Shown in pieces: positions 56,457-60,756 of a stretch of 64,000 nucleotides of DNA. Position 1 is the stretch's first letter. Every line of letters begins with the position of its first letter. The DNA is taken from contig NZ_AP031322.1 in the NCBI RefSeq assembly GCF_041154675.1, positions 682,001 to 746,000 on the forward strand, written 5' to 3'. This DNA is from Sulfurisphaera javensis. Its GTDB lineage: Archaea > Thermoproteota > Thermoprotei_A > Sulfolobales > Sulfolobaceae. The notes under the pieces were generated by a model. That model searched no databases, had not been told where the DNA came from, and saw only the letters and a list, made by a program, of their open reading frames with translations. Made by a program: the position numbers and the translations under genes.

Positions 56457-56875
56457 TTATTTTATGTTAAAAGCAATTTCAAGTAACTGTTTTGCATTCC
56501 TATATCTCCAATAATCTTCAATAATTTCGCCGACTTCTCCAGTACTCTTAGTATGTTGCTTATTACATGCGTTTATATTCCAATCTGGAATTATGACTAT
56601 AGTTAATTCTTTGACTTCTGGTGGAACAGGAAAAAGATCATACATTTCATCACCATATTTCTTTTCAGCCTCATCTCTTGGTAAGACTTCTATCAATATT
56701 GGTACATTTTCTTTAACTTTTTCATTTCCTCGTCTGTTGGTTTTCTATTAAATTGTACTGTTAACCTTCCGTGATTCTCCTTTACATATGTGCTTGCAGT
56801 CCACTTTGCTCCTAAAACTTTTCTTACTGCTCCTTTTAAAACATGTAAAGCTGTATGAGTTCTTATCTCAATCAT
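56457..56875 (-). pseudogene. alaX: AlaX-type alanyl-tRNA editing protein with a frameshift
   Basis: Two frames form one AlaX-like protein of about 140 residues. The first (from the ATG at 56875) has the zinc motif H7-T-A-L-H11; it ends after KKLKKMYQY. The second begins in the other frame as [22 protein letters not shown] and supplies the C-x3-H pair (ACNKQH). All four zinc ligands are kept. The join needs one extra A in the A4 run at 56706-56709. Either the gene is recently broken, the run is mis-sequenced, or ribosomes slip there. A TATA element CTTATATAAG at 56897-56906 makes it leaderless. Confidence 0.75.
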
Positions 56876-56915
56876 AATTAATCATTTTTCTTTTTTCTTA
56901 TATAAGATATTTATG

Positions 56916-56964
56916 GTGATGAAAAGCCCATCAACTGAGTAATGAAGAGATGCGGGTAGACTGA
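56916..56964 (+). ncRNA. Box C/D small guide RNA
   Basis: All four boxes are present in canonical order: C (GTGATGA, 56916-56922), D' (CTGA, 56935-56938), C' (ATGAAGA, 56942-56948, one change from consensus) and D (CTGA, 56961-56964). Both guide regions are exactly 12 bases (56923-56934 and 56949-56960) and the D'-C' spacer is 3 bases, the ideal archaeal geometry. By the D+5 rule the guides AAAGCCCATCAA and GATGCGGGTAGA would direct 2'-O-methylation within UUGAUGGGCUUU and UCUACCCGCAUC. The RNA targets were not identified. Confidence 0.85.
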
Positions 56965-57109
56965 TAATATCTTTTCAATATTTTTAACTTATATAAATTC
57001 AGTTATTTACATTCAATAATAAATTTATTAAATAATTAAATCAATAATTTTTAATATATTTGATATAAATTTATATTTTCAAAGGAGTATATAAGATTAA
57101 TGAAAGTAT

Positions 57110-58990
57110 ATGGGAATAATTTTCCCAGACAAGATGAAGAGAGTATTCATTATTGCTAATCTTCACATAGCTGAGAAACTAGTTCTTGATATATTGAATC
57201 TTGGTGTTTTTCAACCAGAAAAACCTATTTATTCGAAAATATTTAACAAAATAGAATATGTTGATGAATATTTGGCCTTAGTTAAAGATTATTTAACTAT
57301 CACAAATGAAATTATCTCATTTTATTCTTTTCCTATTAAGAGAACTGGTGAATTAAAATTCGATAACCTTTCAAATGTCATAAAAAGTCTTTCTAATGAT
57401 GTAGAAAGGATTAAACATGTTTATGAGAAGATTATAAAATTAAAGCAAAATAGAGAACAGATAGAGGATTTGTACACTAAAATTGAAGAGTACAAAGCCG
57501 AAAATTTGCTCATAGAATTAAATAATCTTTTAATCGAGGAGAAAGAACTTCAGAATTACCTTAGAAAAATTAAGTCAGAAATAGAAACTGAGGTTATTTC
57601 ATTGTATAACAAATTACTCACCATTCAGAACTATTTGGAAATACTATTTTATGCTAGAAAAAGTAGATTCTTTTTCTTTCTTGAAGGTTATGTAAAAGAA
57701 AAGGCATTTTATAACTTCAAGGCAGTATTAATGAATAAATATAGCAAAAATATCATTATTGAGGCAGAAAATCCAGTAAAATATGTCTCTACATTAGAAC
57801 CTCCTCCTACTTCCTTTTCCTCCTCAAGAATCATAAAACCTTTCGAAGTAATAACTAAATTTTATGGTACTCCAAATTATTGGGAGATAAATCCAGCTAT
57901 AGTTTATGCATTGGCATTTCCTTTATTTTTCTCTTTAATGTTTCCTGATGCAGGTAATGGAGTTATTTTATTCATTTTTAGTCTTCTATTATATAAATAT
58001 TCTAAAAATAGAAATAATCAAGATCTTTCACAAATATCTATAGTTTTGGCCATTTCTAGCTTTATATCAATAATTTTTGGACTAATAGATAGAGATTTTT
58101 TTGGACCATTATTAGTTGGAGGAGTTAGAGAAATTATTAATAGTAAAAATGCTACTGTGGGTCCTTTGTACAATTTATGGCCTATACCCTCGTATGTTTC
58201 TTTTAATTTACGATATCTAATACCTTTCGGAATTTATTCAATTCCAGAAATTAGCTTGATTAACGGAATATTGATCAGTATCTCTGTTGGAATAATTTTT
58301 ATGGTGAGCACTATAATTTTAGGAATTATTAATCTTATTTATAAATATAATTTCAGGGATATATTTCTTGATTATTTGCCTTCTTTTATTGTTTACTTTT
58401 CAGTATTTTTATTATTTGCTTATGGATTCGTGTCTCCTTTTCAGTATTTTTACCGAGTAATATCTATTTTAAGTGAAATAGAAAAAATCGTAGTACACTT
58501 CCCAGACAACTTTATGGAGTCATCAGAAAGCATTTTATCATTTAGTATAATAATCGGAGTTCTTATCGGTCTTATTTATGGAAGTTCAATCAGATATTAT
58601 ATCTATAAATCTAAAGGGAGAAAGGGTGTTAAAACGTCACTTTTACAGTCCTTTATAGAAGGATTCTTCGATCCTTTGATTGTTTTGATTTCTAATATTA
58701 TATCATTTATAAGACTCATTGTTCTTGGATTAGCTCATTATTATCTTTTGTATGCGTTCTCTTATTTTGCTATAATGATTGCTGGTTCATTTAATACACT
58801 TCAAGTTCTAACAAATCCTTCTTCGTTATTCATACTTGTTCTAGGAAATTTAATAGCTATAGCACTAGAAGGTACTCTAGCTTTTATTCAGAGTTTAAGG
58901 CTAAATCTTTATGAATTAAGTGGAAAATTCTGTAGATGTGATGGAAGGCCTTTTACTCCTAAGAAAGCTTATGTAAGTATCAAGGAATAA
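57110..58990 (+). CDS. atpI: A-type ATP synthase subunit I/a
   Basis: 626 residues. An N-terminal cytoplasmic half with coiled coil (about 90-190) and a C-terminal half with seven or eight helices. The essential Arg of the proton path is in ISFIRLIVLGLAHYY (about 536-550). It is a stator and proton-channel subunit of the archaeal ATP synthase. No other subunit gene is within the window, so it is separated from the main operon. The sequence is rather divergent. Confidence 0.85.
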   Translation: MGIIFPDKMKRVFIIANLHIAEKLVLDILNLGVFQPEKPIYSKIFNKIEYVDEYLALVKDYLTITNEIISFYSFPIKRTGELKFDNLSNVIKSLSNDVERIKHVYEKIIKLKQNREQIEDLYTKIEEYKAENLLIELNNLLIEEKELQNYLRKIKSEIETEVISLYNKLLTIQNYLEILFYARKSRFFFFLEGYVKEKAFYNFKAVLMNKYSKNIIIEAENPVKYVSTLEPPPTSFSSSRIIKPFEVITKFYGTPNYWEINPAIVYALAFPLFFSLMFPDAGNGVILFIFSLLLYKYSKNRNNQDLSQISIVLAISSFISIIFGLIDRDFFGPLLVGGVREIINSKNATVGPLYNLWPIPSYVSFNLRYLIPFGIYSIPEISLINGILISISVGIIFMVSTIILGIINLIYKYNFRDIFLDYLPSFIVYFSVFLLFAYGFVSPFQYFYRVISILSEIEKIVVHFPDNFMESSESILSFSIIIGVLIGLIYGSSIRYYIYKSKGRKGVKTSLLQSFIEGFFDPLIVLISNIISFIRLIVLGLAHYYLLYAFSYFAIMIAGSFNTLQVLTNPSSLFILVLGNLIAIALEGTLAFIQSLRLNLYELSGKFCRCDGRPFTPKKAYVSIKE

Positions 58991-59512: not shown

Positions 59513-60190
59513 TCACCGAAGTCGCAGATTAGACCCTTCATTCTTCTCATCTTCATTAGGGGGATTACCCCACACACCCTTATAGGGAAACCCCCACATC
59601 TTGAGGTTAAACTTGTTTAGAAACCTCTTCATAATATTAAGTGAAGCGTTATACTGTCTATCAAGTGTTAACCCACATTTCTCACACCTAAAAGTCTTGC
59701 CAACCATTCGGGAAACAACCCATCCACATCTAGGGCAAGACCTAGATGTGAAGTGTGGGTTAACTTCCACTATTTTACAACCATAGAAAGGAGCTTTACA
59801 TTTTTACCAATAACCTTCCTCAGCGTTGTTTTTACTCTTACATAACCCTTCTTAATTAATGGTGATTTGAATTTGCTTCTCCCCTTTTCAAATCTTCTTA
59901 TCCAGGATTCAAGGATAGAGTAGACGTCGTGAATTGCTTGGTCTAATGTTTTGCTAATCCTTGCGTATTTTCTCTCGTCAAGTATCCTCTCAATTCTTTG
60001 TATGTTTCCTTCTTTTTGGTAACTCTACTTTTCTTTTCTTCACTTTAATTCTACTAAACACGTATTTTATTCCCTTGTTTAGTATGTTTACGTAAGCGTG
60101 GATTAGTTCTTTACTTTTCTCTTTATTATTTCTTATCGCATACGTGAGCTATATATATTCTTTTTTCTTGTGGTGTGAATGTTTAATTCT
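59513..60190 (-). pseudogene. Degraded tnpB of an IS607-type element
   Basis: The C-terminal part is readable: KAPFYGCKIVEVNPHFTSRS, then a Cys4 ribbon (CPRCGW...CEKCG) and DRQYNASLNI, typical of TnpB. Upstream, two frames read TYAIRNNKEKSKELIHAYVN and LDQAIHDVYSILESWIRRFE, the TnpB N-terminal region. A large internal deletion and several frameshifts separate them, removing most of the RuvC core, so no active nuclease is possible. Confidence 0.8.
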
Positions 60191-60199
60191 TAAGTTCTT

Positions 60200-60756
60200 T
60201 TACACTTTTTCATACTTATGACTTCTCATTTTGCCAGAGAACGAGATGCTAGTTAGGTCTTCAATTACTTCTTGTTCTGGTGTTTCTTCTTCTTTTTCTA
60301 GGACTATTATTTCGCAACCGTGTGTTTTGCATACTTGCTCGAGTATTTCGAATCCGAATGTTAGTAGCCTATTTGGGTAAGCAACAATAATTTTGCTTGC
60401 TTTGTTGTTTAGTATCATTCTGAGTAGTTTTTGGAGTCCTTTTCTTTTCATGTTTATTCCAGATCCTATGTCTGTTATTATGATGTCGTGTTCTGGTATA
60501 AGTAGTTTACCTGATTTAGTAGATTATCTTTTTGTGTGTTTGATGATACGCTATCATAAAGTACTTTTTTCTTATTATTTCCTTAAGTATTTCTACATCC
60601 TCTTCTCTAAATCTCATTTTTCCAGACGGTAATCTTACTGGTGTTATTGTACTTTATATATTCTTGTAATGTTGTGTATGATATTCTTAATCTCTGGCAT
60701 ACTTCTTTGGTCTTAGCATCGTAATTAAATTTGTATACAGAGCGTTTAAACTTCAT
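60200..60756 (-). pseudogene. Degraded tnpA serine recombinase of an IS607-type element
   Basis: From the ATG at 60756 the frame reads a MerR-like helix-turn-helix (KEVCQRLRISYTTLQEYIK), then after frame breaks SVSSNTQKDNLLNQVNYLYQ, the catalytic Ser region of IS607 resolvases, and finally IIVAYPNRLLTFGFEILEQV (60200-60451). The order TnpA then TnpB fits IS607. Stops inside the frame show it is dead. Confidence 0.8.

Follow-up and report, generated by a model that had tools for sequence, protein, structure and literature searches.

Does the intergenic DNA between an alaX-like gene and an ATPase subunit gene of Sulfurisphaera javensis contain a gene for a box C/D guide RNA, and which RNAs would its two guides address? 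An initial annotation of the window (the whole stretch of 64,000 nt that was analysed) described C, D', C' and D boxes in this order at positions 56916-56964, with guides of 12 nt on both sides and a D'-C' spacer of 3 nt, and both the order and the lengths proved to be exact (Table 1). The ordered boxes of an archaeal C/D sRNA (C/C' RUGAUGA, D/D' CUGA) are all present, with C' carrying one change, and the form TGAAGA of this box recurs among other C/D candidates of the S. javensis genome. The spacing of 12/3/12, with 49 nt from box to box, agrees with the values described for archaeal C/D sRNAs, which have guides of ca. 10-12 nt, a short D'-C' k-loop spacer and a total length of 50-70 nt (PMC7994747). 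The terminal stem appears weaker in relatives, at 4-5 bp with a similar offset in an alignment read by eye. The RNA alone folds only moderately (z -1.8), as is expected since archaeal C/D RNA is shaped by L7Ae.

Table 1. Features of the C/D box locus and its surroundings (window coordinates; invariance refers to the four-species alignment)
Feature	Position	Strand	Sequence	Remarks
Approximate C/D box sRNA gene	56905..56972	+		AU-rich terminal stem included; ends estimated from sequence
Terminal stem	56905-56913 with 56965-56972	+	AGATATTTA with TAATATCT	one bulge, ~8 pairs; predicted from sequence
C box	56916..56922	+	GTGATGA	exact RTGATGA; TGATGA invariant
D' guide	56923..56934	+	AAAGCCCATCAA	invariant core AAAGCCCAT, final three bases variable
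D' box	56935..56938	+	CTGA	invariant
D'-C' spacer (k-loop)	56939..56941	+	GTA	one base longer in relatives
C' box	56942..56948	+	ATGAAGA	one change from RTGATGA; invariant
D guide	56949..56960	+	GATGCGGGTAGA	invariant core GATGCGGGTA; final two bases differ from relatives (CT)
D box	56961..56964	+	CTGA	invariant
Palindromic TATA-like element	56897..56906	-	CTTATATAAG	centre ~26 bases from alaX ATG; read from sequence

As had been proposed, the regularity of the boxes is very unlikely to have arisen by chance. A four-box scan of both strands (guides of 10-13 nt, spacer of 2-6 nt, C' with at most one mismatch) found exactly one match in the window, that at 56916-56964, and no match in 150 windows simulated with a first-order Markov model to have the dinucleotide composition of the original; even a much looser four-box scan rendered just 2 matches across 150 simulated windows. 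In the genome (one contig, 2.57 Mb), the pattern RTGATGA-N9-14-CTGA-N20-30-CTGA was found at 21 loci, against 1 for a reversed-pattern control, and a recognisable C' box is present in 19 of the 21, including the locus studied here.

In the mechanism established for archaeal C/D RNAs, L7Ae binds the k-turn and the k-loop, Nop5 and fibrillarin follow, and methylation takes place at N+5 (PMC7994747). Applied to this locus, the C/D pair would fold into a k-turn and the C'/D' pair into a k-loop, both of which would be bound by L7Ae and then by Nop5 and fibrillarin, so that each of the two guides would direct 2'-O-methylation to the nucleotide with which it pairs five positions upstream of its D box. 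In 10 of the 18 other loci that bear a C' box, a guide can form an unbroken run of 9 or more Watson-Crick pairs over N+5 with the genome's own 16S or 23S rRNA, which indicates that the pattern recovers largely real methylation guides in this genome. The locus at 56916-56964, unlike those 10, has no guide with at least 9 consecutive pairs to rRNA.

Other C/D candidates were located at G000:C1:38442-38488 (L079), 158050-158097 (L080) and 158444-158491 (L081). The D' guides of L079 and L081 are almost the same and their D guides are not, which likely reflects a duplication followed by drift of the guides; L080 and L081 are encoded on opposite strands at a distance of 350 bases.

Orthologues were detected in all three other genomes of the genus that were examined (G001, G002 and G003; E 1e-10 in one of them and 5e-12 in the other two). 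The C-box TGATGA, the D', C' and D boxes and both guide cores are identical in the four species, and variation is found in the three bases beside D' and the two beside D, with flanks that hardly align. That boxes and guide cores have been retained while the intergenic DNA around them drifts is the strongest indication of a functional RNA, and the invariance of the cores in surroundings that are not invariant suggests selection on pairing. Outside the genus, a covariance model built from the four sequences gave chance-level matches only and no confident orthologue among 31 genomes of the family, and scanning 84,980 species genomes with the pattern gave no match, although near relatives are possibly absent from this set. 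As far as searched, the sRNA thus appears restricted to one genus. The only other genomic occurrence of TACCCGCATC is inside an ORF of 473 aa that by eye resembles glutamine synthetase, and is uninformative. A different C/D-like RNA was observed in two other genera of the family (L114 at ~1482-1530 and L115, reverse strand, at ~1491-1540), with guides AATCCGGGA and ATGCGCGA common to both and no clear target for them in S. javensis rRNA.

At gathering cut-offs, no Rfam family matches the locus. A permissive search recovered sR2 (E 6e-5), snoPyro_CD (7.5e-4), sR43 (1.6e-3) and sR5 (3.3e-3) on the same 50 bases and the same strand, all aligning to it box for box and all below their cut-offs. With 28.2 bits against a cut-off of 42 for sR2 and 25.8 bits against 45 for snoPyro_CD, the locus belongs to neither family. 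The identification as a C/D guide RNA is nevertheless well supported by the geometry, the genome-wide enrichment, the orthologues in 3/3 genomes of the genus and these sub-threshold matches, and we consider with high confidence that 56916-56964 corresponds to the gene of a canonical archaeal C/D box sRNA. This RNA of a heat-loving archaeon is almost certainly real and of the ordinary type that guides the addition of methyl groups to ribosomal RNA, with targets that are weakly indicated; its transcription, RNP assembly, methylation activity and target identity are what we infer from the DNA.

With regard to the targets, the sites UUGAUGGGCUUU and UCUACCCGCAUC that had been expected in rRNA or tRNA were not borne out, since full complements of the two 12-mers are absent from the 16S, 23S and 5S rRNAs and from 46 tRNA genes. 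According to the criterion of Dennis et al. 2015, a target requires nine consecutive Watson-Crick pairs over N+5, and 163 of 489 archaeal C/D sRNAs, about a third, fail it for 16S and 23S rRNA (PMC4644070). The longest run of the S. javensis D' guide with rRNA comprises 8 pairs (23S U1691), a length reached by 14% of shuffled guides. When the four species are taken together, its best target is 16S U202 (S. javensis numbering; ca. position 210 in Escherichia coli), with 7, 8, 8 and 9 consecutive Watson-Crick pairs over N+5, the run of 9 corresponding to the G001 guide and all guides of the relatives being scored against the 16S rRNA of S. javensis, not against their own. Column-shuffled guide sets attain the combined score at this site in 0.6% of cases and core-shuffled sets in 4.6% (P ~0.006-0.05). 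We tentatively propose 16S U202 as the likeliest site addressed by the D' guide, an assignment that is possible and short of probable. Further D' candidates (16S U797, 16S U606, 23S U1691 and 23S U2962) were discarded because their conservation in the four species is lower than that of U202. A tRNA-Lys(UUU) was rejected because its 8 pairs involve the 5' portion of the guide and leave the N+5 nucleotide unpaired; matches in other tRNAs, which extend beyond the mature 3' terminus or would hold only with arbitrarily chosen splice points, were likewise rejected.

It is quite possible, if somewhat short of an even chance, that the locus encodes a real C/D sRNA that is an orphan, in which case an RNP would form without an rRNA or tRNA substrate, and the RNA would be drifting or would act on mRNA or some other RNA. 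Neither 16S, 23S and 5S rRNA nor tRNA contains a target with at least 9 consecutive pairs, and the third of archaeal C/D sRNAs mentioned above lack a significant one in 16S and 23S rRNA, but the guide cores have stayed unchanged throughout the genus in surroundings that have changed, which suggests selection on pairing, and the pairing of the D' guide with 16S U202 beats most shuffles.

The orphan condition might also apply to one guide only. The S. javensis D guide reaches at best 7 pairs with rRNA, as do 70% of shuffles, and its best joint sites in the four species, 23S C1527 and 5S C94, are not significant in a uniform test (14% of column-shuffled and 32% of core-shuffled sets). The D guide may therefore pair only weakly, with 23S C1527 or 5S C94 at best, and given the weakness of these candidates it may be orphan or drifted. 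The 23S A-loop (C2688, ca. 2554 in E. coli), with 8 pairs including one G-U, was rejected as being at chance level.

An unlikely alternative to a drifted D guide is that it targets C94 of 5S rRNA, so that the sRNA would link 5S (through D) with 16S (through D'). Over N+5, the core TGCGGGT forms 7 Watson-Crick pairs with 5S ACCCGCA in four of four species, and the guides of the three relatives pair at 10 of 11 positions, a result attained by 1.5% of shuffled cores in a post hoc comparison. This site was itself chosen post hoc, however, the pairing in S. javensis spans 7 bases only, 23S C1527 scores equal to or above 5S C94 in the uniform test, and the sole 2'-O-methylation reported for Sulfolobus 5S rRNA is at C32 (PMC2584109). 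More improbable still is the full assignment of one sRNA to two rRNA molecules, D' to 16S U202 and D to 5S C94; if true, it would imply a second, undescribed ribose methylation in the 5S rRNA of Sulfolobales, and maturation of 16S and 5S rRNA would perhaps be coupled. We also observed that the 5S rRNA of G002 (L189, 1501-1619) differs at scattered sites from the other three 5S rRNAs of the genus in its 5' two-thirds and is identical to them in its 3' third, a mosaic that is possibly due to gene conversion or to an assembly artefact.

The genomic context is partly as had been described. The gap of 234 bases was confirmed (56876-57109, between the alaX start at 56875 and the ATPase ORF start at 57110), and the product of the downstream ORF is subunit I of a V-type ATPase (Pfam V_ATPase_I, 4.9e-31), but the gene taken for an intact alaX (56457-56875, minus strand) is split into two ORFs of 60 and 79 aa in different frames. 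It is therefore probably broken, representing a pseudogene or a sequencing frameshift, and the split apparently arose through a small internal deletion. That the boxes are a chance resemblance or a dead relic without a transcript is very improbable, for although the adjoining alaX is broken, none of the 150 simulated windows matched and all boxes are kept in four species whose intergenic DNA otherwise hardly aligns.

Returning to the guide RNA gene, no strong promoter was found for it at the expected distance. The placement of CTTATATAAG would fit a leaderless alaX promoter on the opposite strand, and the element lies too near the C box to drive transcription of the sRNA. Dedicated promoter motifs are seen in only ca. 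20% of archaeal C/D genes (PMC7994747), so that the sRNA is likely made by processing of a longer transcript. A peroxiredoxin gene is found upstream of the locus both here and at the orthologous locus of G002 (L003), and the downstream gene differs, being that of V-ATPase subunit I here and an ORF that by eye resembles a nickel/cobalt transporter in G002. Farther along the window, short ORFs at 59513-59770 and 60200-60451 (minus strand), in which a zinc-finger end like that of TnpB/Cas12f1 and a weak match to serine resolvases are seen, are possible remains of an IS607-type element.

The archaeal C/D repertoire, which evolves fast, gains one guide RNA gene that, within the genomes searched, is confined to a single genus. 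A reading of the sequence alone recognised it correctly where the curated Rfam thresholds miss it, and its value, the target predictions being weak, is mainly for annotation. Compared with Rfam sR2 and snoPyro_CD (RF01139 and RF00095), the locus is alike in its full-length, box-for-box alignment on the same strand and differs in its guides. In the order Sulfolobales, 61 C/D box sRNAs have been described in Sulfolobus acidocaldarius (PMC4644070). Unlike known Sulfolobales C/D sRNAs, the locus has guide cores without a counterpart outside the genus (31 genomes of the family) and no target of at least 9 consecutive pairs in S. javensis, whereas it resembles them in its boxes, its 12-nt guides, its k-loop spacing and its size. 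As in the known Sulfolobales systems, the S. javensis genome also encodes fibrillarin (G000:C1:2069819-2070487, E 1.6e-104) and carries other loci of the same pattern.
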